This document shows positions 26,635-43,083 of a stretch of DNA of 64,000 nucleotides, piece after piece. Source of the stretch: an uncultured delta proteobacterium (GTDB lineage Bacteria; Myxococcota_A; Polyangia; Polyangiales; Polyangiaceae). The notes below the pieces were generated by a model. The model searched no databases. It was not told where the DNA came from and worked only from the letters and a program-made list of their open reading frames with translations. The stretch lies in the NCBI GenBank assembly GCA_903892415.1, contig CAITIQ010000230.1, positions 49,399-113,398 of the forward strand, read 5' to 3'. Positions within the stretch are counted from its first letter, which is position 1, and each line of letters starts with the position of its first letter. A program made the translations under genes and the position numbers.

Positions 26635-27921
26635 TCAGCTCTTGGCCGCCTTGACGACCTCTCCAAGAGGCGAGGCCAGCCGACTCTTGTGACCGCCTTT
26701 GCTGACCTCTGCGTCGCCTGCAAACGCCGCGAGGTCGAGCCCTTTGATGGCGGCGGCCAACAGGTCGGGCAGCCGCTCGGGCGTACAGCCGAAGCAGGGC
26801 ATCCCGAGCGTTGCGAGCTTCTTGGCGAGGTCCTCGTTGTAGGCCGGTTTGCCTTGATCACTGATGGCTAGCAGCGTGACCGCTTTGACGCCGCTCTCGA
26901 GCAGTCCCTCCATCTTGCGCACGAAGCGCGCTTCGTTGGGGCTGGTGTCGTGCAGGTCGGCCAGCAAGATGTAGAGCGTCTTGGCCGGCGTGTGCATGAA
27001 GCGCTCGCAGTAGCTGGTCGCCATCCAGTAGTCCTCGGCGCCGCTGAGCTGAATGCCGAACAAGAGGTCGACCGGGTCGTGACAAAGCTCGGTTAGGTCC
27101 ACGACCTCTTCGTGATTGAACGCCACCACGTGGGTCTCGACCGCCGGGATGCTGGCGAGGATCGCCCCCATGATCCCGCCGTAGATCAGCGAGCCGTGCA
27201 TCGAGCCGGACTGGTCCATCGCGATGATGATGTTCCACTGGTTCTGCCGCTGTTGACGGCTGAAGAAGGACATCTCCGCCGGGACGATGGTTTTGAGCTC
27301 GGGCAGGTAGTTCTTCAAATTGCGCCGAATGGTGCGGGGCCAATCAAGGTTCGGCAGACTGCGAAACGGGCTGTGCCGGTTGCGGTCGAGCGCGCCGCGG
27401 ATCGCTTGTGCGAATTGGTTCTCGAGCTTCCGCCGGACTTCCTCGACGACCTTGCGCACCAAATCGCGAGCGGCCTCTTTGGCCTTCTCCGGCACCAGGT
27501 TCTTCAAGCTCAACAGCGTGGCTGCGAGATCCACCGACGGTTCGACCTGACACAAGAGCTCCGGCTCGAACAGCAGCTCCTTCATCCCGCGCCGTTCGAT
27601 CGCGTCGGTTTGGATCAGCGCGACGACGTCATTGGGGAAGAACGTGCGCACCTGGTGAAGCCACTTCGCCACTTTGGGCGTGACGCGGCCTTTGACCGTC
27701 CCACCCCCGCGGCGATCGCGCGAACGCTCTTCCCACTGCTCGCGCGAGAGCTCCTCATCGCCGTCGTCTCCGCCGTAAATAGCGTCGAGCGCTTCATCCA
27801 TCTCGAGCCCGTCGCCGGAGAGCGAGCACGGAAGGCCGCCGCTGCAGCTCGAGAGCGCCTCTTGCGCCTCCTTCCCGAGAATCAGACGCCAGCGTTGAAG
27901 TTGGTTCGGGTCCACGGCCAC
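26635..27921 (-). CDS. vWA-domain protein of the MoxR-associated system
   Basis: A 428-residue protein with an N-terminal helical domain and a C-terminal von Willebrand A domain. The MIDAS motif is DQSGSM (IIIAMDQSGSMHGSLIY), with an aspartate-containing motif ADLHDTSPNEARF further on. vWA proteins pair with MoxR AAA+ ATPases, which are thought to load or regulate metal-bound vWA partners. It is the last gene of the five-gene operon, starting 2 bp after the DUF5682 stop. Confidence 0.88.
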   Translation of the reverse strand: MAVDPNQLQRWRLILGKEAQEALSSCSGGLPCSLSGDGLEMDEALDAIYGGDDGDEELSREQWEERSRDRRGGGTVKGRVTPKVAKWLHQVRTFFPNDVVALIQTDAIERRGMKELLFEPELLCQVEPSVDLAATLLSLKNLVPEKAKEAARDLVRKVVEEVRRKLENQFAQAIRGALDRNRHSPFRSLPNLDWPRTIRRNLKNYLPELKTIVPAEMSFFSRQQRQNQWNIIIAMDQSGSMHGSLIYGGIMGAILASIPAVETHVVAFNHEEVVDLTELCHDPVDLLFGIQLSGAEDYWMATSYCERFMHTPAKTLYILLADLHDTSPNEARFVRKMEGLLESGVKAVTLLAISDQGKPAYNEDLAKKLATLGMPCFGCTPERLPDLLAAAIKGLDLAAFAGDAEVSKGGHKSRLASPLGEVVKAAKS

Positions 27922-27923
27922 GG

Positions 27924-30305
27924 CTACAGATCTCCAAAGTCGAATTCGTTGAGTTCGCCGAGCTTCTCCTCTTCGGCCTCGGTCATCGGCTTCTCCAAAA
28001 GTTCGGCCGCTTCATCTGCGCGAACTCCCCAGTGTTCGGCGAGATTCTCGGCTATCTGCCTTTTCTCGCGTTTGGAGAAGGCACCGAAGGCGCGCCGCAG
28101 GAACACCACTGCGCGACGGAACTCGGTCTCGTCGAGTGCCGCTACGTAGTCCGCCAGCTGCGTCCACAAGGCCTGCCTTGCCAAGAGCGCATAGCGGTTG
28201 CGCCGGGCCAAGCCTTGGAACCAGCCAGCGCCGAGATCGGCCGGCACGCCGGGAGAGAGCCTGCGTGAGACCTCGCGCGCCAGCTCCTCATTGGGCAAGA
28301 GGCCGCGTTCGAGCAAGATCGCGCAGGCGTAGCCGGAGAGCGTGGGGTTGCGATCGTCTGCGTCGGAGAGCGCCCGCAGCGCCTCGATCCAGCGCGGTTC
28401 ATCGACGCGATCGCTGAACTCGAGCGCGACGGCGTTCAGCTCATCCAGCCCAACGAGCATCGCCTTGGCGGCTTCGTCGTTGCAGCCGGCCGAGGCGTGG
28501 AGCGAAAGCGCGCCTTGCACGAACAGCTCCTCGATCAGCGGAACCAGCGGCTCGCCATCGAACTGGCGTACATCGCCGTAACGCACCGTTTGGCCGAGCG
28601 CGCGGGCGGCGTGCGCGATCGCCGCGAAGTCGGACGAGCCCGAGGTGAGCTCTTGAAGCCGCTTGCGGGCGGCCTCCATCGCCCGCATCAAACCGCACAA
28701 GCAAGCGTCGCGAACGACGTCCCCGGCCGCCGCGATGTTGGCGCAGTTCTCCAACGTTTGGTTGAAGCGGTAGCCGACGGCGAGCTCCACCGTCTCACCG
28801 AGCAACACCGATTCCACCAATTGGATCTCGCATTCGGGCGTCCAGCGGAGTGTCCATTTTTCGGCCCAGGTCGTCGACTGCTGCTTCGTCGCGAGCGGCT
28901 CGGAGAATTGAACGCCGAGCACGCGCAGGCGATGGAAGAAGCGCGAACGGTGGAGGTCGAGGAAGGCGGCCTCCTCGGTCTTCGCCTGGCGGTTCTCACG
29001 CAGATCGAGGCTGAGTTCTTCGGCGGCTTGCTTCTTGTACTTCTCGAGCTTGAGTCGCGTCAGCTCGCGCGCGAAATCGGCTTGGATCGAGGTGCGGCTG
29101 ACGCCGTCGGGGAGCGAGCCGATTTGGTCGCCGATCTCAACCTCTTTGAGCGCCCCTGCGATCGCCAGCACCTCTCCCTGGCCGAGCAAGGTGACTGCGG
29201 CTTCGCGCAGATCGCGCAAGGTCGGCGCTAGGCCGCCGTAGAAGGCCGACATCGTCTTGGCCAGGCGAACGCCCTCGATCACCTCGGCGGTCGAACGATG
29301 CGTGCCGGATGCGCGCGTGTGCCTCGCGATCAGCGACAGATACCGCGCAGGCGTCTCGCTCAGTTGATCGCGCTGCAAGGCGTCCCACATCAACTCGAAG
29401 TAGGCCGGGGCTTGATTGCCGGCGCCGTAGCCCGATTGTGAGGAGAGCTTGAAGTACGAGTAGGGCATGAGTGTCAGCTTGCCCGCGCGTCGCGGCAGCG
29501 AGGCCAGCTCCTCGTCGCTCATCGCTGGCTGCTCGCGCGTGAGCACCGGCGCATGGAAGGCACCAACCACGGCCACGATCTGTTCGGGCTTGTAGCCCTC
29601 GGCTACGTAGGCCTCGATCTGGCGGCGCATGTACGCTTCTCGCACCAGGTTCTCCGCTCGCCAGCGCGGTGAATCTTGTTCGAGCTCACGCAGCGCGGCC
29701 CCGTACTCGAAGGCCGCCAAACGGTAGCTGTCTTCGCTCTGGTTGTGCTCGAAGGCCCGCTCCCAATAGGTCTCGTGGTCGGGCTCCCCGGCCTGTTTGG
29801 CGACGAGCTCGTAGAAGGAAGGCTCGCGCTCCGGCCGATGCGATAGCGGGGCCTTCTCGTCCTTTGACGGGGCTGCCGCGCCTGCAGGGCCTTTCGCGCG
29901 CGCCTGCTCGGCTTCCTCAGCGGCCTCTTCGGCAGCTTGGCGCCTCGCTTCGACCCAGCGAGCCTCTTTGAGATCGGCCAGGCCCAGAAATACCTCCGAC
30001 GGCAAGTCGATGAACGCCGTGCGCACGCCCTTCTGCGCGGCCCACGTGAGCGCCTGATATTCGGGGCTGTAGTTCGCGAGCGGGTAGACGATCGTCCGCA
30101 CTGGGAGCGAGTCGGTGTAGGCCAGGATCGCGATCGGCGGCTTCGAGTCGCTGCGCACCAGATCCGCGATCAATCCGCCGGCGTCGGCGAGCCCTTCAAT
30201 CAACACGAGCTTCGGCTTGATGCGATCGAGGAAGCGACGCAGATGCCACGCTCCCATCGGCGATAGGTGCCGCACGCCAAAGACGTGGATCGAAGAATCG
30301 CTCAT
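27924..30305 (-). CDS. DUF5682 family protein (TraB/EreA-like motifs)
   Basis: A 793-residue protein. Its N-terminus (IHVFGVRHLSPMGAWHLRRFLDRIKPKLVLIEG) carries a G-x-x-H ... P-x-x-V-x-I-E pattern and later has EQIVAVVGAFHAPVLTRE, resembling the VVGAxHxxG motif of the TraB/Tiki/EreA-ChaN superfamily. That similarity is my inference; DUF5682 is a named family of unknown function that occurs with MoxR and vWA genes. The central part has a Lys/Ala/Glu-rich coil (EEAAEEAEQARAK), and the rest is mostly helical. It starts 4 bp after the MoxR gene's stop. Confidence 0.85.
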   Translation of the reverse strand: MSDSSIHVFGVRHLSPMGAWHLRRFLDRIKPKLVLIEGLADAGGLIADLVRSDSKPPIAILAYTDSLPVRTIVYPLANYSPEYQALTWAAQKGVRTAFIDLPSEVFLGLADLKEARWVEARRQAAEEAAEEAEQARAKGPAGAAAPSKDEKAPLSHRPEREPSFYELVAKQAGEPDHETYWERAFEHNQSEDSYRLAAFEYGAALRELEQDSPRWRAENLVREAYMRRQIEAYVAEGYKPEQIVAVVGAFHAPVLTREQPAMSDEELASLPRRAGKLTLMPYSYFKLSSQSGYGAGNQAPAYFELMWDALQRDQLSETPARYLSLIARHTRASGTHRSTAEVIEGVRLAKTMSAFYGGLAPTLRDLREAAVTLLGQGEVLAIAGALKEVEIGDQIGSLPDGVSRTSIQADFARELTRLKLEKYKKQAAEELSLDLRENRQAKTEEAAFLDLHRSRFFHRLRVLGVQFSEPLATKQQSTTWAEKWTLRWTPECEIQLVESVLLGETVELAVGYRFNQTLENCANIAAAGDVVRDACLCGLMRAMEAARKRLQELTSGSSDFAAIAHAARALGQTVRYGDVRQFDGEPLVPLIEELFVQGALSLHASAGCNDEAAKAMLVGLDELNAVALEFSDRVDEPRWIEALRALSDADDRNPTLSGYACAILLERGLLPNEELAREVSRRLSPGVPADLGAGWFQGLARRNRYALLARQALWTQLADYVAALDETEFRRAVVFLRRAFGAFSKREKRQIAENLAEHWGVRADEAAELLEKPMTEAEEEKLGELNEFDFGDL

Positions 30306-30309
30306 GGCG

Positions 30310-31449
30310 CTACTCGTTCATTTCGGAGCACGCTGTGTACAAGGCACGCCACTCGGAGCCGCGCTTCTTGAGCACGTTGGACAGGTACTCCTGCCACACC
30401 AGGCGGTCTTTCTCCTCGTCTTTGACCACGGCACCTTGCAAGCCGCTGGCGACGTCCTGCGAACTGACCGAGCCGTCGCCGAAGCTGCCGGCGAGCGCCA
30501 TGCTGTTGGCCAACACCGAGATCGCCTCGGCCGTCGAGAGCACGCCGCTCGGCTGCTTGAGCTTGGCCTTGCCGTCGAGGGTTTGGCCGGTGCGCAGCTC
30601 ACGGAAGATGGTGACCACCTTCTCGATCGCCTCGTCGGCTGGGATCTTGGCTTTGAGTTGCAGGTTGCTGGCGAGATCGTGGACGCGGCGGCGGACGATA
30701 TCGATCTCGGCTTCAATCGTTGCAGGCGTCGGTAGCACGACGATGTTGAAGCGCCGTTTGAGCGCGGCCGACATATCGTTGACCCCGCGATCACGCGTGT
30801 TGGCCGAGGCGATCACCGAGAAACCGCGAGTGGCTGGGGTCTCGGTCTCGAGCTCAGGGATCGAGATCCGCTTCTCCGACAACAAGCTGATCATCGCGTC
30901 CTGCACCTCCGATGCGCAGCGCGTAATCTCTTCGAAGCGCGCGAGTGTACCGGTCTCCATCGCGCGGAGGATCGGGCTGCGGATCAACGCGTCTTGGCTC
31001 GGGCCGTGGGCGATCAGCATGGCGTAGTTCCAGGAGTAGCGGATCGCCTCTTCGGTCGTGCCGGCCGTGCCTTGGACGACCTTGGTCGAGTCCCCGCTGA
31101 TGGCCGCGGCCAAGTGCTCGCTGAGCCAGCTCTTGGCGGTGCCTGGCTCGCCGATCAACAAGAGCGCGCGATCGGTCACCAAGGTGCTGATGGCGATCTG
31201 CACCAACCGCTCATGTCCGATGTACTTGGGGCTAATCGTCAGATCGCCGACCGTGCCGCCGCCGATATAGGTCTGCACGGCGCGCGGCGAGAGCTTCCAC
31301 CCGGGTGGGCGGTCGTAGGTGTCGGCTTTGGCCAGCGCTTGCAGCTCCGCTGCGAAGCCGACCTCCGCTGGAACGCGCAGCAAGTCGCTGTCTGGCTTGC
31401 TGCCCTGGGTCGTCGGGGGCGTCTCGGCGCCGTCTTTCTTCTTGGCCAT
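30310..31449 (-). CDS. MoxR AAA+ ATPase of the vWA operon
   Basis: A 379-residue AAA+ ATPase. Walker A is LIGEPGTAKSW (LLLIGEPGTAKSWLSEHLAAAI), the ssDNA-binding-like loop follows, and sensor-1 is SVIASANTRDRG. I use the ATG at 31449 (MAKKKDG) because GAGGAG lies 6 nt upstream; the track start at 31518 overlaps the previous gene. Its lid domain is complete. In such systems the MoxR ATPase switches the vWA partner; the client is unknown here. Confidence 0.9.
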   Translation of the reverse strand: MAKKKDGAETPPTTQGSKPDSDLLRVPAEVGFAAELQALAKADTYDRPPGWKLSPRAVQTYIGGGTVGDLTISPKYIGHERLVQIAISTLVTDRALLLIGEPGTAKSWLSEHLAAAISGDSTKVVQGTAGTTEEAIRYSWNYAMLIAHGPSQDALIRSPILRAMETGTLARFEEITRCASEVQDAMISLLSEKRISIPELETETPATRGFSVIASANTRDRGVNDMSAALKRRFNIVVLPTPATIEAEIDIVRRRVHDLASNLQLKAKIPADEAIEKVVTIFRELRTGQTLDGKAKLKQPSGVLSTAEAISVLANSMALAGSFGDGSVSSQDVASGLQGAVVKDEEKDRLVWQEYLSNVLKKRGSEWRALYTACSEMNE

Positions 31450-31480
31450 GGCTTTCTCCTCGTCTGCTCGCGTGGTCACG

Positions 31481-33271
31481 CTACTTCGCGGCCCGGTGCC
31501 TGTCTTTGAGTTGCTCAATCGCTCCCACCAACTGGTCGATGAGCCGCTCGTGCATCGTGGGTAAGAGCGCTTCGAGCGGGGCGATCGCCGTGGCCGGTAA
31601 GGCCGGAATCTCCCGAGCGATCAGCCAAACGTGCGTATGCGCGCGACCTTTGACGGCCTCCGCGTTCTTGGCCGCGAGCAAGCCGAGCACCGTCTCGACC
31701 AGCTTTGGGTGCTCGCAGCGAATCAGCGCTCCAAGCAAGTGAGGCCACCTGTCATCGGACTTCTCTTGGTCGGCCCTGCTGCTTAGATACGCGAGTAGGG
31801 CGGCATGCCCAGGCTGTGACACCGCTTCGACCAATGGCAGGTCCTCCAGGGCGATCGCTAGGTCGATCCAGCGCGTGTCGAGCACGGGCTGGTCGTCGGT
31901 TCGACGACTGCCGTAGTGCCAACTCGCTTGGCCACCCGCCCGGATCGCCGTTCGAATGGCTTCCCAGCGTTGTTGTTCCGCCGACTTCGCCCCAGTCCCG
32001 CGGCGCGCCGTTTCGGCGGTCGGCCCAAAGCGCTCGTAGACCTCCGCCGGGCCGAGCGTTCGGCGCGCAGCCAGGAAGGCGTGCTGCAGCGCGGCTCCGG
32101 TAAGCTCCGCCTGCTGGTCGATCAGCCGTTTGGCGAGCGCGGTGTCTCCGCTCCCCATGAGGAATGCCACGCGTTCATTGACGTCCGCTCCAGAGGGCGT
32201 GGTCTTGATCTTCGCGAGGAGCGCCCGTTTGTCGAATAGTTCGATCAGCACTGCAGAGGCGTTTGGATCCACGCGCCCAACAAACACGTGCAGCCACTGC
32301 AGCAACCTCAGGGTCTCCTTGCCTTGCTCGTCCTTCATGGCCAGCAATTGGGCGAGCTGTGCGCGGGTCTGCTCGACCAGCCAGGCGCTGAGGGCCGGCC
32401 AGGTCGCGTCGCGCAGCGGTTGGATCAGCGACTCGAGGTCCTTGGGTACGCGCGCCTTGAGCACCGAAAGCGAGGCTTCGGATTGGACCTGCATCAGCGC
32501 CGAAAGCGCCGCCACGCGCACGTCCTTGGCCTTGGACGTGGCCTGCTCCAAAAGGAAGCCGAGGTCCTCCTCGTCCGAGCCGAGGCAGGCGATCGCCGCG
32601 ACGCGCAGCTCCTTCGAACCTTCCTCGAGCGACTGCTTGACGATCGCTCTTGCAGCTTGTGGATCCAAGGAATGAAGCAGGCGCAGCCTGCGTGTGTCGC
32701 TTACGCGCCCACGCTTCGCCTCGAGCTGGGCCAAAAGCTCGCCGATGATCGCCCTGCCGTACTTGGGGAGCACCTCGCGTTGGATCCGTTCGGCGATCTC
32801 GGGGTACGGATCATCGAGCGCCCGCAACGCCGGTAGCACCAGGCGCAGGTCGTTGAAGACCCCCTGCTGGATCGCGTCGGCCACGATCTCCAAGCGGCCG
32901 CTGCCAGTGGTTGCAAGCGCCTCGAGCAACGGCTTGAGCGTGCGCGCGCTCGCTTGCGTCGGGGACGCGCGAAACTGCACCAACTCGATCGGCTCGAGGG
33001 CGCCCGCCGCTCCTGTCTCGCCCTGCGTGTAGAGGATCGCGCTCAGCAGCCCGGCGAGGTCGAGCAAGGCCTGCGGCGCGGTCTTCTCGTTGGCGTCCAC
33101 CACGGCCTGTGCAGCCTGCGCGACCTTGGCGAACACAGGCGCCTTTTCGCCAGCCTTTTCGAGCGCAGGGATCAGCTTCTTGAGGCGAAAGTCACCGGGC
33201 GCTACGGCGCTCCCGGCGATCGCCAGCCGCCGAGCTTCTTCCTGGGTTTGCGCCAATACAGCGATGCTCAT
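31481..33271 (-). CDS. HEAT-repeat-like protein (probably DUF5691)
   Basis: A 596-residue helical-repeat protein made of alpha-alpha units (for example AIACLGSDEEDLGFLLEQATSKAKDVRVAALSAL). The ATG at 33271 has GAAGGA about 9 nt upstream; the track's 33478 start adds 69 unlikely residues. It is the second gene of the operon SWIM-HEAT-MoxR-DUF5682-vWA. A close paralogue lies at 55216-56940, sharing the start EEARRLAISGSALAPGDFRLKQLIP almost exactly. Naming it DUF5691 rests on remembered gene order, not on a search. Confidence 0.75.
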   Translation of the reverse strand: MSIAVLAQTQEEARRLAIAGSAVAPGDFRLKKLIPALEKAGEKAPVFAKVAQAAQAVVDANEKTAPQALLDLAGLLSAILYTQGETGAAGALEPIELVQFRASPTQASARTLKPLLEALATTGSGRLEIVADAIQQGVFNDLRLVLPALRALDDPYPEIAERIQREVLPKYGRAIIGELLAQLEAKRGRVSDTRRLRLLHSLDPQAARAIVKQSLEEGSKELRVAAIACLGSDEEDLGFLLEQATSKAKDVRVAALSALMQVQSEASLSVLKARVPKDLESLIQPLRDATWPALSAWLVEQTRAQLAQLLAMKDEQGKETLRLLQWLHVFVGRVDPNASAVLIELFDKRALLAKIKTTPSGADVNERVAFLMGSGDTALAKRLIDQQAELTGAALQHAFLAARRTLGPAEVYERFGPTAETARRGTGAKSAEQQRWEAIRTAIRAGGQASWHYGSRRTDDQPVLDTRWIDLAIALEDLPLVEAVSQPGHAALLAYLSSRADQEKSDDRWPHLLGALIRCEHPKLVETVLGLLAAKNAEAVKGRAHTHVWLIAREIPALPATAIAPLEALLPTMHERLIDQLVGAIEQLKDRHRAAK

Positions 33272-33330
33272 AGACGTTTTTCCTTCGCAAACGTTGGACG
33301 CGGTGCAAGCGGGTCGGCCGAGTTCTCGCG

Positions 33331-34788
33331 CTACAGCGTCAAGCGAATCACCTGCTGCTCGGTCACCACCGAGAGCAGCTTGACCTGCAGCTTGCGCGTA
33401 TCGAGGTCTTGGCGGAAGCGAACGATCAAGGTCGGCGCGCTCAACGCTGCCTTCGGCAGCAGCGGGACCAAATGGCAACTCGGTGGCTCCTCCGACATGC
33501 CGCGATCGGTGAGCGTCAGGCGGTCCCCTTTCTCGTCTTCGATCACGAGCACGCCATTCACCTTGCCCAAGCGCTGGGTGCGCAAGGCGTAGATCGGCGT
33601 CTTGTCGGCCAGCGGTGACTTGAGCGTATTTTTGACCTCCTTGATGGTGCTGGCGAAGTCGGGGCGCGCGAGCTCACACACCCGCTGCAGATCGCCCGGC
33701 TCGATCGGTCGGCTGGTCATGCCGTCCCAGCGGATGCGGGGATTGACGTCGCCCGGGTAGATGCAAAGTTCGGGTGTCTTCGCGACCTGGAAGAAGCTGT
33801 CGTCGCTGTGAATGAACTTGGCGGCCTTGTACGGGCGGAAGTTCTGCGTCAGGCCGATGCGGCCGGTGCGGAGGTTCATCCACACGCCGGTGTCGACGAA
33901 CTCTTTGCGCGCTGTGTCGTTGTGCATGTTGAAGGAGAGTTGCAGCAGCTCGACCTCGCTCTCGACCAGGCCAGCGGCTTTGAGCTCGCTCAACTGCCAG
34001 GCGTGACCAAGCCACGCCGCGATCGGCGACTCGGTCTCCGGCTTGAGCTCCGGATCCTCGAGGCGCTTCTGCAGATAGGCGCGCCCTTGTTTGACGAGGG
34101 CGTTGAGGCGGGTGAGCTGATCGAGCGCCTCGCTGAACACCGACTCGCGCACGACGTTGGAGACGCTCGTATCGAACTCGCCGAGCTCGTTGGCGAACAG
34201 CTGGGTGTAGCGATGCAGCGCCGCTTGCGCCCCGGGGAGGTAGGCGTTGCCCAGCTGTTTGGCCTTCTCCTCGATCTCCCGTGCGGTCTTGGCGCTTATG
34301 TTGCCGATACCGAGCCGCATCAGATCCAGAGTGAGCGTCTCCAATAGATCGATGCCGTCGAGCTGGGCCGTGATCTTCTTGGCCAGCGCCGACTTATTGA
34401 CCTTGGTTGGCTTGGCCGCGGACTCCTTCTTTTTCTCCGACTTGTTCGCGAGCTTCTCGCGCTTCTCGAGCACGTCGGCGGGAACCTCCGCGACGGTGAA
34501 GGCGGCCCGCTTTTGCACGTAGGCGTACATCAAGCCGACGGTGTGTTTGCAGGGGAACTGCCGGCTCGGACAGTTGCAGCGATAGGTCGGCTGTTCGGGC
34601 CGCACGAAGTCGCACGAGCAAAGGTACGGATCTGCGCCGGAGCCCAAGCACTCGGCGAAAAGCAGCGAGCCTTCGGCGTCGAGGTGGAGCTTGGTGAACC
34701 TGCCCTTGAGCAAGAGCGCCCTCCCGTTCTTGGCGGCGTCGGCGTTGGGCGCTGCCGCCGAAACGAAGGCTTCGTCGATCGAGATCAT
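33331..34788 (-). CDS. SWIM zinc-finger protein, first gene of the operon
   Basis: A 485-residue protein with the SWIM zinc-binding signature CNCPSRQFPCKH (CxCx-n-CxH), preceded by CSCDFVRPEQPTYR. Behind it is a Lys-rich stretch (KREKLANKSEKKKESAAKPTKVNKS) and a long helical C-terminal half. SWIM domains bind nucleic acid or proteins. I use the ATG at 34788, with GGAG 6 nt upstream; the track start is a GTG at 34812. This leads the five-gene cluster. Confidence 0.82.
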   Translation of the reverse strand: MISIDEAFVSAAAPNADAAKNGRALLLKGRFTKLHLDAEGSLLFAECLGSGADPYLCSCDFVRPEQPTYRCNCPSRQFPCKHTVGLMYAYVQKRAAFTVAEVPADVLEKREKLANKSEKKKESAAKPTKVNKSALAKKITAQLDGIDLLETLTLDLMRLGIGNISAKTAREIEEKAKQLGNAYLPGAQAALHRYTQLFANELGEFDTSVSNVVRESVFSEALDQLTRLNALVKQGRAYLQKRLEDPELKPETESPIAAWLGHAWQLSELKAAGLVESEVELLQLSFNMHNDTARKEFVDTGVWMNLRTGRIGLTQNFRPYKAAKFIHSDDSFFQVAKTPELCIYPGDVNPRIRWDGMTSRPIEPGDLQRVCELARPDFASTIKEVKNTLKSPLADKTPIYALRTQRLGKVNGVLVIEDEKGDRLTLTDRGMSEEPPSCHLVPLLPKAALSAPTLIVRFRQDLDTRKLQVKLLSVVTEQQVIRLTL

Positions 34789-34912
34789 TCGCAGCTCCGG
34801 TGAGAGTCGCACAGCCGTGGCAAGCGGCCGCGATTGTTCGCGATGTAGCGGCGAAGTTCAACTGCGTAGCGGCGAGCGGGGAGGGGGGAGGGGAGAGCGG
34901 CAGCGCCGTCCG

Positions 34913-37444: not shown

Positions 37445-40400
37445 GTGGCCAGAACAGCACCCGTTCCCAATCTTCCCCCCATCCCTGGAATGTGCCCGAG
37501 CGTCGCGGTCCTTGGCGGAGGAGGGAACGGCGGCGGTGGCTCAGGAAACGGGGCTGGTGACGGAAACGGAAACGGCCCCGGAGACGGCGACGGAAGCGGG
37601 GACAACGCACAGAGTGATGGCACCGGAAGCGGCGCGTGCGGCACGGGAGGCGCAGGAGCCTGCTCCAACTGCGGGCACAACGTGGCGGTAGGCGATCCAG
37701 TCGATGTCGTGTCGGGCAAGGTCTTCACGGTCCCCGTGCGTGAACTGCGTCTCCCCGGCACTTTCACCCTCACGTGGCTTCGGTCCTATGGGGCCGACAA
37801 CCGTCGCGTGGACGTGGGCATGGGCTTTGGTTGGTCTCACAGCCTGGGATGGCGCTTGGAGGAGCATCGGGATCACGTGCTCGTTCGCAGCGGCGACGGA
37901 TCGCGCACGGTGATGCCGCTCCCTCGCCCAGGCGAGCAAGTGCGGCTCGGCGGCTGGGGAATCCTTCGCGCGGACGAGTTCTATGTCGTTCGGCCGGGCA
38001 ACGAGTTCATCCACTACTTCGAGCGCCAACCGGGGAGCGACTACTTCCGCCTCGCGTTCGTCAAGTACCGCAACCGCGGGGTGATCTCGCTCCAATACGA
38101 GGGCACGCGCCTCGCCCGCGTCATTGACTCGGTTGGCCGCGTTATCCTGCTCGAGCGGGGACCCAACGATCGCGTCGCGTCGATTGCACTGCCGGACGCA
38201 CGAGGAAACACAATCGTCTTCGCGCGCTACGGCTACGACTCGGAGGGCAACCTCGTAACCGCGGCGGATGCGGATGGCGCAGTCACGACCTACGCGTACG
38301 ACGACGACCATCGCCTCGTGCGGCTGCAGTACCCGAGCGGGCTCACGTTCCATTTTCGCTACGACGCGAACGGCCGCTGTATCGAGACGTGGGGCGAGGG
38401 CCCCGACCTACCAGCAGCGCTCGCCCAGGACCTCCCCGCGACACTCGTGGATGGGTCGGTCGCGCGCGGTATCTTCCACTGCAAGCTCGACTTCGGGGTC
38501 GATGGCTACAGTGAAGTCGTCGATTCGACGCGACTGCGCCGCTTCTTCGGTGGTCCGGGCGACGCGGTTGCCAAAGCAGTCGACCCGCGTGGTGGGGTAA
38601 CGACGCGAGAGTTCGACGACGCGGGGCGCGTCGTCAGCCAGACGGATCCGAACGGTTCGAAGTGGCTCTATTGGTACGATGACGTGGACGAGATCATTCG
38701 CGAGATCGACCCCGAGGGACGCGAGGTGACGCTCCGTCGTGACGGCGCGGGTCGGGTCGTCGAGATGGTGGATGCAGCGAAGGGCGTCGTCCGCGTCGAT
38801 CGCGATGACTCGGGAGAGATCGTCGCCATTCATGACCAAGCGGGCGCGACCAAGCGCTTCGTGCGTGACGCACGTGGTCTCGTCGTCGAATGCCACGACC
38901 AGCGCGGCGCCCGACATGTGTACGAGTACGATACGCACGCCAACTGCATCGCGAAGCGTTCGGTCCGCGGTGGCGTGTCCCGTGCGTCCTACGACTCGTG
39001 GGGGCGCCTCCTTCAGGAGACGGACGCGCTGGGGTTCTCGCGGAGCTACACCTATTCGAACGGCGGTAAGCTCCTCACGGGGCGCGACCGCTCGGGTGGA
39101 ATCACGAGCTTCACCTACGACAAGATGGGCAACTGTACCTCGCAGACCGAGCCCGACGGCACCACGACGAGCTGGGAGTTCGGTGGTCTCAATTGGTGCA
39201 TCCTCGAGCGCCTAGCCACCGGTGACGAGACACGGATCCAGTACAACCGCGAGGGCTTCGCGACGCGCCTCGTCAACGCACGAGGGCAGACATATGAGCT
39301 GGAGCGCGACCCAATCGGCCACATCGCGTCGGAGACGAACTTCTTCGGCCAGCGAATTCGGTTCGGGTACGACGCGACGAGTCGCGTCGTTTGGTACGAC
39401 GAAGGCAGCGGCAAGCACGTTCTAGAACGCGATCAAGTGGGCAATGTCATTTCGCATACGGCTCCAGACGGCGCCTCGCGAACATTCGAGTACAGCCCGC
39501 GCAACGAACTCGTCTCGGCCAAGAACGGCAAGACCTCGTTTCGATGGACGCTCGATCCGGTCGGTCGCGTCCTACGCGAAGAGCTGACGGTGGACGAGGT
39601 CACGTATACCGTCGAGTCAGAGTTCGATTCGACCGGAGACCGCGTCGGGGTGCGCACCTCGCTCGGTCATCGACTGCTCTTTCGCCGCGACGTAGCAGGT
39701 CAGGTCATGAGCGCGATGGACGCGCGCGGAGACGTGGTGTCGGTGCGCCGGAACGAGATCGGCTTGGCCGTCGAGAGCAACCTCTCGGCGGGTGGCACGA
39801 TCAAGGACACCTACGATCCGTCGAGGCGACTCCGACGACGCGAGGTCCTGCCCGCCAATCATCGCCCGGCGGCGGGCGCGGGTGAGCCCGACTGGATCGG
39901 CGGGACAGCGCCCGGCGTGAGCGATCATCAGTTCGACTACGGGGTAAACGAAGAGCTGGTCAGCGTTCGCGGTACCAGCGACGTCGACTACGAATACGAT
40001 TTGCTCAAGCACCTTAGGAAGGCGCGTCGCAACGGGCGAGTCTCGGAGTTTCGGAGCGACCCCAACGGAAACCATCACGAGGTGGGCTCCAGCGCGCTCG
40101 CACGGCACTACGACGACGGCGACCGGCTGCTCTCTCTCGGTGCGACCAAGTATGTCTACGATGCACGCGGTCGGCTTGTCGAAGAGAGCACCACCGAAGG
40201 CGGAAAGACCTCCACGAAGCGCTTCGCCTGGGACGACTTTGGCATGCTCCGCACCGTGGAGAAGCCGGACGGTTCGAAGGTCGAGTTCGAATACGACGCG
40301 TTCGCGCGACGCCTCGCCAAGCGCGTCACGCGACGCGGCAAGCGCGCGCAGACGCAGCACTACGTCTGGGATCTCGTGAGCATGGTGCATGAGGTGTCCG

Positions 40401-41446
40401 CGCGAAAGGCGGCACCGGACGTACGCACCTATCTATTCCTCGACAACGACGATGTCCGTCCGCTCGGACATCGCGATGCCGTCGCTGAGACTTCGGGCGA
40501 TTGGCGCTTCTACGTGACCGATCCGCTCGGTACGCCGGAGGCCATCGTCGACGGCGGGGGTCGGACGCTATCCAAGGCCGAGCGCGACGTGTTCGGTGTC
40601 ACCACGTTCACCGGGACGGAGCGGACGCCGTTTCGCTATCCGGGGCAGCAGGCGGACGATGAAACGGGACTCCACTACAACCGCTTCAGAACCTACGATC
40701 CAGTGACGGGTCGCTACCTCAGCGCCGATCCGATCGCGTTGGAGGCTGGCACCAATCTGTATGCTTACGCGCGCAACCCGGTCGGATGGATGGACCCTCT
40801 CGGTCTGCACGATCTCACGCACTCGAGCGACGATCCAGGCTTCAATCGCACGCAGGGTAGAACCATGCAGCGGGGCCCTCACGCCGGCGAGACGATCTAT
40901 CGCTCTGGGCGCAACCCCAACATGCCGGCTCAGCTCGCATGCACGGAGGGCATGGATGCCCGCACCCACACGGAGCAGCAGTTCGCGCACGATCTCATCA
41001 GCCAGCGTGGAAACCGTAGGGGCGCCCACACCACACACAACCTGGTCGGCACGTTCCCTCCGTGCCCCACCTGTCACGGTGCGATGATGCGTGCGGCGCG
41101 CGAAACGGGCGCGACCATCAACTACTCGTGGACGCAGAACGGCGCGACCCAGACCATTGAGTACACAGGCTCTGGGGCCCGCGCGAGGTCGGGCGAGCTC
41201 GCCAGACGGTTGGCTGGGGATGGCACGAACCCAGGAGTCTATGACCACACGCTCCGCAACCAGTGGGGGGGCATCAATCAGCCCGGTGACGGGGGCCAGA
41301 CCTACACGTCAGACAGCCGACAGTACTGGGGCTTCAACTCGAGCTCGAGCTGCGAAGCCGAGTACCAGGACATGCGCGATGCTCGCAAAGCTGGCGGCAC
41401 CTACAATCCGAGCACTCCGACCGCTCGTCGTCCCAATCCGCGATGA
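37445..41446 (+). CDS. Rhs/YD-repeat polymorphic toxin with C-terminal deaminase domain
   Basis: A protein of about 1333 residues. Order: start near MARTAPVPNLPPIPGMCPSVAVLGGGG, a Gly/Asp/Asn-rich linker, a DUF6531-like entry (VGDPVDVVSGKVFTVPVRELRLPGTFTLTWLRSYG), then about 20 YD repeats, and the Rhs core end GLHYNRFRTYDPVTGRYLSADPIALEAGTNLYAYARNPVGWMDPLGL. After DPLGL comes a 210-residue toxin with HTEQQ and FPPCPTCHGAMM. The start is uncertain (GTG at 37445 or 37379, ATG at 37490), because it faces the TPR gene. No signal peptide or PAAR domain is obvious, so the delivery route is unknown. Its stop overlaps the next gene's ATG. Confidence 0.85.
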   Translation: MARTAPVPNLPPIPGMCPSVAVLGGGGNGGGGSGNGAGDGNGNGPGDGDGSGDNAQSDGTGSGACGTGGAGACSNCGHNVAVGDPVDVVSGKVFTVPVRELRLPGTFTLTWLRSYGADNRRVDVGMGFGWSHSLGWRLEEHRDHVLVRSGDGSRTVMPLPRPGEQVRLGGWGILRADEFYVVRPGNEFIHYFERQPGSDYFRLAFVKYRNRGVISLQYEGTRLARVIDSVGRVILLERGPNDRVASIALPDARGNTIVFARYGYDSEGNLVTAADADGAVTTYAYDDDHRLVRLQYPSGLTFHFRYDANGRCIETWGEGPDLPAALAQDLPATLVDGSVARGIFHCKLDFGVDGYSEVVDSTRLRRFFGGPGDAVAKAVDPRGGVTTREFDDAGRVVSQTDPNGSKWLYWYDDVDEIIREIDPEGREVTLRRDGAGRVVEMVDAAKGVVRVDRDDSGEIVAIHDQAGATKRFVRDARGLVVECHDQRGARHVYEYDTHANCIAKRSVRGGVSRASYDSWGRLLQETDALGFSRSYTYSNGGKLLTGRDRSGGITSFTYDKMGNCTSQTEPDGTTTSWEFGGLNWCILERLATGDETRIQYNREGFATRLVNARGQTYELERDPIGHIASETNFFGQRIRFGYDATSRVVWYDEGSGKHVLERDQVGNVISHTAPDGASRTFEYSPRNELVSAKNGKTSFRWTLDPVGRVLREELTVDEVTYTVESEFDSTGDRVGVRTSLGHRLLFRRDVAGQVMSAMDARGDVVSVRRNEIGLAVESNLSAGGTIKDTYDPSRRLRRREVLPANHRPAAGAGEPDWIGGTAPGVSDHQFDYGVNEELVSVRGTSDVDYEYDLLKHLRKARRNGRVSEFRSDPNGNHHEVGSSALARHYDDGDRLLSLGATKYVYDARGRLVEESTTEGGKTSTKRFAWDDFGMLRTVEKPDGSKVEFEYDAFARRLAKRVTRRGKRAQTQHYVWDLVSMVHEVSARKAAPDVRTYLFLDNDDVRPLGHRDAVAETSGDWRFYVTDPLGTPEAIVDGGGRTLSKAERDVFGVTTFTGTERTPFRYPGQQADDETGLHYNRFRTYDPVTGRYLSADPIALEAGTNLYAYARNPVGWMDPLGLHDLTHSSDDPGFNRTQGRTMQRGPHAGETIYRSGRNPNMPAQLACTEGMDARTHTEQQFAHDLISQRGNRRGAHTTHNLVGTFPPCPTCHGAMMRAARETGATINYSWTQNGATQTIEYTGSGARARSGELARRLAGDGTNPGVYDHTLRNQWGGINQPGDGGQTYTSDSRQYWGFNSSSSCEAEYQDMRDARKAGGTYNPSTPTARRPNPR
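40810..41446 (+). other. predicted nucleic-acid deaminase toxin module of the Rhs protein
   Basis: This is the region after DPLGL. It holds a HxE zinc and proton-shuttle motif (HTEQQFAHDLI) and a PCxxC zinc motif (FPPCPTCHGAMMRAA) about 45 residues apart, the defining pair of the cytidine-deaminase superfamily used by bacterial toxins such as DddA-type enzymes. The C-terminal 100 residues (NQWGGINQPGDGGQTYTSDSRQYWG) are low complexity. The substrate, DNA or RNA, is not known. Confidence 0.75.
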
Positions 41447-43083
41447 GCACTATCGACTGGTCTTCGAAAGAGCATCTCTACGGCCCTGCGGACGACGTCC
41501 GAGAGCTGCTGGAGCTGCTGCTCTCGGATGACGAGGGTGCTGTCGAGGAAGCGTTCGACGGGATCTTCGAGCGATTCGTTGCTCGGGACGGCAGGTCGAC
41601 GAGCGCCGCTACGGACATGGTCACCGCCCTTTTGGATCTCCTCGCCGAGGTCGCGCATCCTGGCCCGGTGCTCCTGCTGATCGCCGAGATCCTGGGTGGA
41701 GACCACCTGCGTCAATGGGTCAGTCAAGAGCTCCTGTCCAGTGAAGGAGCGGCGATCGCCATCGCGAGGCACACAGCTTGGTTGCCGCTTCTCGAGAGCG
41801 ACGTCGGCTCTGTTCGGGCTTGCGCGACCGTTCTTGCATCGACCGTCCGGGCGTCGGGTGCTGTGGCAGCCCTCTCTGCGATGGCGACGCAGGACCCCGA
41901 CCCGATCGTGCGCGCGTCGGCCATCCTCGCGCTTGCTCCCTTCGAGAGCCCCGATTCCCGAGAGGCATGGGAGCGCGCCCGCGTCTCGGGCGAGCCAGTG
42001 CTGATCGGCGCGGTCGCGCTCGCCGCCCTTCGCGTGGACCCGTCGCGCAGCTTCGAGCAAGAGGTCGGCGGGCTCGAGGCGTGGCTTTCGTGGGATGCGC
42101 CACGCTGGTCGCCCGAGCGGACCGAATTCCCATGGTTCGAATGCGCCTGGGCGTCGACGTACGCCCTGGCCCGCCCACATGACGGACAATCTCGCGTGGT
42201 CGCCGAGCTCGCGCGACATCGCAACGCCACGCGCGAACTCTCGGCGCTGCTCCTTGCTCGTGCGGCCGCGACCGAAGCTGGCCCGTTTACGCGTCGAGCT
42301 GGGGCGCTCATCGCTGACCTCGGCGGCCTCATGGCCCGCTGGGTTCACTCCGATACGCCCGAGGTGGAGCCTTTCGAGGCGTTCACCGCAGAAGAGCAAG
42401 CGACGATTCGCGAACTTGCTGCGACCCCTCTGCTGCCCAACGCCACGCGCCAGATGCCTGCCGCAGGCCTTCCTCGACGCCGCTGGGCGGAGATGGATCC
42501 CTCTTCGCCATCGACTCCGGACCTTCTCGACCGATGGGAGTCAGCGGTGCAGACCTTCTCGGGTGCCTACGGGGGAATGGCCCCTGCACCTCGCCTCCCT
42601 CTGGAGGCAACGGAGCTTGCTCTCGCGGTTTCGGCGGTCGTCGATCCGACGAGGATGACCCCCGTCCTCGACGACATCGCGCTGCGGTTCACTCACAGTG
42701 AGCGGGAGGGCTTCGCGCCCCGGCGGAGCAGCGCGCTCACCGTCGTCGCGTTGCTTCCGCTCGTCCGCGCGGGAGTCTCTCTCTCTCCGCAGTGGGATGT
42801 CATCATCGCGCCATCGCTCGATCCGCTCGCGACGGAGGTGTTCTCGTCGCTCGAGCTCTCGCGTCGCGAACCAATTCTCTGGAGAGAGCTCTCTTCGCGC
42901 GGTGAGAGGGAAGTTGCGGGAACGAAGGAAGCTGTCGCGGCCGTGCACCTGGCGCCGTCCCCAAGGATCGTGGCAGCGCTTCGGGCGCGGTTAGCACACC
43001 GCGTGGTTGCCGGCTTCTTTGGACCCGGGGTCGAGGACCTCCGACGCCAGGTCGATGCCGCCGAGTCGATGCGTCAGTCTTAG
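41443..43083 (+). CDS. HEAT-repeat-like protein, candidate immunity protein
   Basis: A 546-residue protein of paired helices with Ala/Leu-rich units, such as EGAAIAIARHTAWLPLLESDVGSVRACATVLASTVRASGAVAALSAMATQDPDPIVRASAILALAPFESPDSREAW. Its ATG overlaps the Rhs stop by 4 bp (ATGA), so translation is coupled. In polymorphic toxin loci the gene immediately after the toxin is almost always the immunity gene, hence the call. It is larger than most immunity proteins, and it might also act as a chaperone or adaptor. Confidence 0.7.
   Translation: MSTIDWSSKEHLYGPADDVRELLELLLSDDEGAVEEAFDGIFERFVARDGRSTSAATDMVTALLDLLAEVAHPGPVLLLIAEILGGDHLRQWVSQELLSSEGAAIAIARHTAWLPLLESDVGSVRACATVLASTVRASGAVAALSAMATQDPDPIVRASAILALAPFESPDSREAWERARVSGEPVLIGAVALAALRVDPSRSFEQEVGGLEAWLSWDAPRWSPERTEFPWFECAWASTYALARPHDGQSRVVAELARHRNATRELSALLLARAAATEAGPFTRRAGALIADLGGLMARWVHSDTPEVEPFEAFTAEEQATIRELAATPLLPNATRQMPAAGLPRRRWAEMDPSSPSTPDLLDRWESAVQTFSGAYGGMAPAPRLPLEATELALAVSAVVDPTRMTPVLDDIALRFTHSEREGFAPRRSSALTVVALLPLVRAGVSLSPQWDVIIAPSLDPLATEVFSSLELSRREPILWRELSSRGEREVAGTKEAVAAVHLAPSPRIVAALRARLAHRVVAGFFGPGVEDLRRQVDAAESMRQS

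Follow-up and report, generated by a model that had tools for sequence, protein, structure and literature searches.

A Rhs-borne BaDTF3-type deaminase and an overlapping HEAT-like gene: a probable toxin and immunity pair in Polyangiales

A 64,000-nucleotide stretch of contig CAITIQ010000230.1 (the window) from a soil myxobacterium of the order Polyangiales, whose draft genome amounts to 10.85 Mb, carries a gene for a Rhs protein followed by a gene for a large HEAT-like protein (Table 1). The two genes probably form an interbacterial weapon, made up of a Rhs-BaDTF3 deaminase toxin and a HEAT-like immunity protein. In the proposed mechanism, the Rhs shell would package the C-terminal BaDTF3-type cytosine deaminase and, once loaded, ride on a type VI secretion system (T6SS) spike whose genes lie in another part of the genome, to be injected into neighboring cells, where the released deaminase would convert cytosine to uracil in the DNA of the target. 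The large acidic solenoid would stay in the cytoplasm, bind the deaminase domain and block its activity, and through it the producer and its kin would survive. The sequences themselves show a Rhs protein with a deaminase end and its catalytic motifs, the overlap of the two genes and the conserved, deaminase-specific linkage of the HEAT-like gene; models from shallow alignments (five and seven sequences) support the fold of the deaminase and the solenoid of helices, and direct binding and neutralization of the toxin would follow from the proposed role of the HEAT-like protein.

The carrier has the features of a Rhs polymorphic toxin: a shell of YD repeats, a Rhs-associated core end and a variable C-terminal domain. 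An earlier note on this DNA, made from its letters and open reading frames, had the gene start at 37445, a GTG, and the N-termini of homologous Rhs proteins bear this out, as they open with MARTAPVPNLPPIPGMCPS (the homologs fixing the start begin MARTAPVPN) and the window protein with VARTAPVPNLPPIPGMCPS. The shell ends where that note placed it, at DPLGL (residues 1117-1121), with the Pput_2613-like domain after it. The short N-terminus (ARTAPVPNLPPIPGMCPS) recurs on other Rhs proteins of the same genome and of related genomes and is possibly a loading signal. A short open reading frame of this genome (L051, G000:C226:4416-4601, minus strand) encodes the same tag and Gly-rich linker, 71% identical, with no Rhs shell; it is either a truncated Rhs remnant or the tag on another cargo.

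The domain that follows DPLGL matches PF14427 with 47 bits (E 2.6e-12, Pfam; cut-off 25) and therefore its HxE and CxxC motifs are not there by chance. In an AlphaFold2 (AF2) model built on seven sequences of the window and its relatives (predicted template modeling score, pTM, 0.71; predicted local distance difference test, pLDDT, 80-89 in the core), both motifs are placed at helix starts, as in deaminases. The nearest solved structures by sequence (phmmer, PDB) are 9k3e, 9pw0, 9pw1 and 9pw2, which are named YD repeat protein or BaDTF3. For the model, the sole PDB match of Foldseek with E below 0.001 is again 9k3e, "DddB(BadTF3) dsDNA deaminase" (E 1.3e-4, probability 1.00, TM-score 0.60 on the target, 23% identity in the fold alignment). 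By sequence and by model, the domain is Pput_2613-like / BaDTF3, and both this toxin family and the Rhs carrier are of known kinds. A deaminase-type toxin had been predicted from HxE and PCxxC, with a deaminase fold in a structure model as its test, and both are found. Of the deaminase profiles suggested at that stage, SCP1.201 (DddA) and YwqJ do not apply; neither these nor DYW is the best Pfam match. Searches with the window toxin gave no match against plasmids (tblastn) or in a single-protein scan of genome contigs. A mixed toxin alignment (A1) offered no conserved stretch that could be used, and a closer subset (A3) served instead.

What would such a deaminase act on? Characterized family members point to cytosine in DNA: the BaDTF3 member of Taylorella equigenitalis is toxic in Escherichia coli and leads to C-to-T changes in DNA at 5'-HC (PMC7901873). 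Alternatively, the substrate could be RNA or another molecule. Substrates differ even between related deaminase clades (PMC7901873), the relation to the solved BaDTF3 domains is distant, and those domains lack a C-terminal extension (~70 residues, YWG motif) shared by several of the window toxin's nearest relatives. We regard a substrate other than DNA as unlikely, because the solved structure nearest in both sequence and fold carries the annotation of a dsDNA deaminase, and the tested BaDTF3 member mutates DNA.

The gene after the toxin overlaps the Rhs stop by 4 bp and encodes a HEAT-like protein of 546 residues, both as described before. Its AF2 model (pLDDT 78, pTM 0.75) is all-helical, with about 29 helices, and the best PDB matches of the model (Foldseek) are HEAT/ARM solenoids such as AP complexes, the ARM repeats of beta-catenin and PR65 of PP2A. 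The TM-scores of these matches are low and therefore only the repeat class is claimed; with 22 bits, the Pfam HEAT_2 profile stays short of its cut-off (27.7). The isoelectric point (pI) of the protein is acidic, at 5.0, and that of the toxin is basic, at 9.0. As expected of an Imm-HEAT-like protein, it is a helical-repeat solenoid whose gene lies directly 3' of a polymorphic toxin, recurrently across loci. A DNA-repair role as an AlkD-like HEAT glycosylase is unsupported (no Pfam DNA_alkylation match, acidic pI), and comparison with anti-phage defense models gave no matches.

Because relatives keep the pair together, the HEAT-like protein is a probable antidote family for BaDTF3-type toxins. 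The toxin alignment was searched against 184 genomes of the order and the downstream genes were then read. Together with loci from earlier searches, the matches make 17 deaminase loci, picked by toxin homology and blind to the neighbor. A HEAT homolog lies directly downstream at ten of them: the window, L040, L063 (cut by a contig end), L100, L101, L102, L104, L105, L107 and L108. The best homology is full length (window versus L107, 30% over 567 residues, E 1e-52). Relative to the Rhs stop, the HEAT gene starts at -4 bp in the window and L100, at 4 bp at L101 and L104, at 18-64 bp at L105, L107 and L108 (at most 23 bp at L101, L104, L105 and L108) and at 410 bp at L040. The control consisted of 60 other Rhs genes from 12 of the genomes, read for 3.6 kb past the shell end (less at contig ends), and contained no HEAT homolog (0/60) and no toxin-profile match (0/60). 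The HEAT gene therefore tracks the deaminase domain, not the Rhs shell. The difference of 10/17 versus 0/60 corresponds to a Fisher p of 1.8e-8, which overstates independence because case and control loci come in part from related genomes. The linkage persists across toxins differing at >60% of positions. Looking for the HEAT protein beside other deaminase Rhs genes had been proposed as a check, and its outcome, together with the 4-bp overlap, supports the downstream gene as the immunity candidate it was first taken for. Mantel correlations are r 0.94 for toxin versus HEAT distances and 0.95 for shell versus HEAT, with one near-identical pair dominating; the former was rejected as proof of toxin-HEAT co-evolution. 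Two candidates were also set aside, a first-pass toxin match (L039/G244) that is a chance match to a TPR protein, and an ordinary housekeeping-type deaminase (L111/G316).

Does the HEAT-like protein protect, or does it serve the toxin in some other way? HEAT solenoids are general binding scaffolds, and this one might be a chaperone or loading adaptor, with immunity provided by another gene. A second recurrent neighbor is weakly similar to the FGE-sulfatase (SUMF1-like) family. It is found within 3.6 kb at 7 of the 17 deaminase loci (L100, L101, L103, L104, L105, L106 and L110) and after none of the 60 control genes; at L107 its position, ~1.9 kb beyond the HEAT gene, falls outside the 3.6-kb count, and with this locus the number is eight. 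It comes after the HEAT gene at L100, L101, L104 and L105, and after the toxin, with no HEAT gene, at L103, L106, L110 and the fragment L064. At all of these loci, L107 included, it is convergent with the Rhs gene, except for L100, where it is co-directional. PMC9765294 and PMC13340143, citing Lopez et al. (2021, J Bacteriol 203:e00281-21), describe FGE-like proteins as a widespread T6SS immunity family, and with this gene after HEAT at five loci, HEAT is perhaps not the sole protector there; the co-occurrence suggests dual immunity. However, a chaperone for the shell should also turn up at the other Rhs genes that share this shell, and HEAT does not (0/60). The window, L040, L102 and L108 have no FGE-like gene within 3.6 kb (none in the whole window, by a profile over all six frames), leaving HEAT as the only recurrent neighbor, and HEAT genes also occur as orphans, like immunity genes. 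A purely chaperone or adaptor role thus appears rather improbable.

The distribution of partners is consistent with immunity. On the toxin tree, the types of partner are mixed together, with HEAT found in every main clade, as is typical of immunity genes. The sister toxins of L105/L106 and of L040/L099 differ in their partners, HEAT being swapped for FGE-like, leucine-rich repeat (LRR) or small genes; the neighbor at L099 is a 122-residue protein. Overlap, specific linkage, partner swapping, a basic toxin facing an acidic HEAT protein and the solenoid model together favor HEAT immunity. More tentatively, and with rather less confidence than in the pair itself, the BaDTF3 toxins of Polyangiales may be under exchangeable, unrelated immunities (HEAT, FGE-like, both as dual immunity, and LRR at one locus), with broad protection by HEAT. 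Because the toxins differ so widely in sequence, HEAT may recognize a conserved deaminase feature and be broad instead of pair-specific. The LRR protein (L109:5902-6579, plus strand) has 225 residues and follows a deaminase-like Rhs gene with a 4-bp overlap; the toxin there has CxE, not HxE. A second Pput2613-like deaminase Rhs gene of the window's own genome (L045:2546-7218, G000:C417) has an overlapping neighbor of 195 residues.

The earlier note left the delivery route open. T6SS delivery now appears likely, because the genome has sheath and DUF2169 matches and relatives have PIPY or DUF2169 genes upstream of the toxin. In a search limited to the sheath family (VipB/TssC) and DUF2169, sheath matches fell on contigs C63 and C194 of the own genome. 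At L101, a PIPY gene (Tox-PAAR-like, DUF4150) ends 3 bp before the start of the deaminase Rhs gene, and L063 has a DUF2169 gene upstream. DUF2169 proteins act as chaperones for the VgrG-PIPY spikes of T6SS (PMC11883445). Pfam finds no PAAR/PIPY domain on the window Rhs protein, and membership among T6SS Rhs effectors is not claimed because no PAAR/PIPY, its own or adjoining, and no adjoining VgrG or adaptor was found. The DUF2169 matches of the own genome number 38 and far exceed its sheath loci, an excess that suggests a large repertoire of T6SS cargo.

Several points weigh against the two genes being a delivered toxin and its immunity. No HEAT homolog lies downstream at 7 of the 17 deaminase loci. 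The ranking of HEAT hits is partly circular, as the profile was built from linked proteins, which leaves the 0/60 control unaffected. The C-terminal stretch of the toxin (about domain residues 136-211) is poorly modeled by AF2. As the earlier note had it, no PAAR-like, VgrG or secretion genes were found adjoining the Rhs gene, in a window annotated in part (all six frames were scanned with the HEAT, FGE and toxin profiles). Finally, HEAT homologs exist without a toxin: two full-length ones in the own genome (G000:C368 and G000:C129) and others at L142, L145, L146 and L150, with an FGE-like gene beside those at L142 and L150. HEAT proteins of more distant kinship that share a DW..HAYGPA N-terminus also occur often and on their own, and HEAT-like genes are common in the order, with some match in 102 of the 184 genomes. 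A downstream gene conserved without any toxin had been named beforehand as grounds to abandon the pairing. This holds in part, since orphans do exist; the linkage stands, however, and they do not overturn the association because orphan immunity genes are common.

With the two orphans of the own genome, it could also be that the HEAT protein of the window is a broad polyimmunity factor against deaminases of other strains and that the cognate immunity is one of the orphans. However, it is the overlapping gene that would be coupled in translation, and the 4-bp arrangement recurs at L100, in the same genus, which makes this version quite improbable. That the module targets eukaryotic prey or is decaying, with a random or unrelated HEAT gene from a family widespread in the order, is very improbable, as both genes are intact and their specific linkage is kept across divergent toxins.

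Other loci and neighbors deserve mention beside this candidate toxin and immunity pair. A further Rhs gene of the own genome (L046:7527-13108, G000:C106) has a YwqJ-type deaminase C-terminus, and its overlapping next gene encodes a protein of ~565 residues that looks helical, has no Pfam match and is missed by the HEAT profile. At L159:1572-7595, the end of a Rhs gene is again possibly deaminase-like (APCTQKNGC), and two HEAT-family genes come next, the first of them convergent. The window itself contains a conserved-looking cluster on the minus strand (26635-34812), which we take to resemble MoxR/VWA ternary conflict clusters.

Table 1. Features of the Rhs and HEAT-like gene pair and of the minus-strand cluster (window positions).
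Feature	Position	Strand	Evidence
Rhs polymorphic toxin, 1333 residues	37445..41446	+	RHS_repeat 5.3e-59, DUF6531 1.2e-14 (Pfam); Rhs_assc_core 4.6e-25 (NCBIfam)
Short conserved N-terminus (ARTAPVPNLPPIPGMCPS) and Gly-rich linker before the DUF6531/Rhs shell	37445..37690	+	
DUF6531 and YD-repeat Rhs shell ending DPLGL	37691..40810	+	Pfam/NCBIfam; DUF6531 region from about 37691
C-terminal Pput_2613-like (BaDTF3/DddB) cytosine deaminase domain (predicted), 211 residues	40811..41446	+	PF14427, phmmer, AF2, Foldseek
Catalytic HxE (H-T-E)	40967..40975	+	Sequence; H53/E55 invariant among 7 relatives; starts helix 54-67 in model
Zinc-binding CxxC (C-P-T-C)	41063..41074	+	Sequence; C85/C88 invariant; starts helix 86-99 in model
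ATGA, Rhs stop overlapping next start	41443..41446	+	Sequence; translational coupling expected
HEAT/ARM-like all-helical solenoid, 546 residues, candidate cognate immunity protein	41443..43083	+	AF2; homologs after deaminase Rhs genes
DUF5682 protein of cluster	27924-30305	-	E 8e-149
HEAT_2-like protein of cluster, 665 residues	31481-33478	-	
Protein with SWIM-like CxC..CxH motif of cluster	33331-34812	-	

BaDTF3 deaminases have become DNA-footprinting enzymes, as with DddB in FOODie (PMC12698189). If the HEAT-like protein is indeed their antidote, it would be a natural off-switch for these enzymes and a useful tool, and it would show how a solenoid neutralizes a mutagenic enzyme. One and the same toxin family gains and loses candidate immunity partners from at least two unrelated families, at some loci both together. 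Dual immunity has been described as rare (PMC13392607), and the loci with both HEAT and FGE-like genes offer a direct setting in which to test it.

How does this pair compare with known systems? BaDTF3/DddB (T. equigenitalis, 9k3e) shares with it the HxE and PCxxC motifs, the deaminase core, the YD-repeat carrier and an immunity gene adjoining the toxin; the window toxin differs in its distant sequence, its YWG extension and its HEAT-solenoid partner. SsdA-SsdAI and DddA-DddAI also combine a cytosine deaminase toxin with an adjoining cognate immunity gene, but belong to other deaminase clades (BaDTF2 and BaDTF1, respectively). The FGE-like T6SS immunity proteins resemble the present case in that a gene of this class adjoins the same toxin type at loci of relatives; they differ in that it is absent from the window and, at relatives, is usually convergent with the Rhs gene instead of co-directional. 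For Pput_2613 toxins, the predicted immunity is Imm10 (PMC3482391), which is mostly beta, whereas the window partner is an all-helical HEAT solenoid with no Pfam match to Imm10. HEAT-type immunity has been predicted for Tox-REase-7 and Ntox34 toxins (PMC3482391), and Tdi5a, a HEAT-like immunity protein, has been solved together with its DNase toxin, whose active site it covers (PMC13392607). Like the window protein, these are HEAT-like helical-repeat proteins adjoining a polymorphic or T6SS toxin; their partners are Tox-REase-7, Ntox34 and the Tde5 DNase, and that of the window is a deaminase. The earlier note had called large HEAT immunity unusual and perhaps a new pair. Immunity of this kind is already known for nucleases; as the partner of a deaminase, a HEAT solenoid finds no report in the literature searched, and the pairing of such large proteins (520-630 residues at the deaminase loci) with BaDTF3 deaminases, in one bacterial order, appears to be new.

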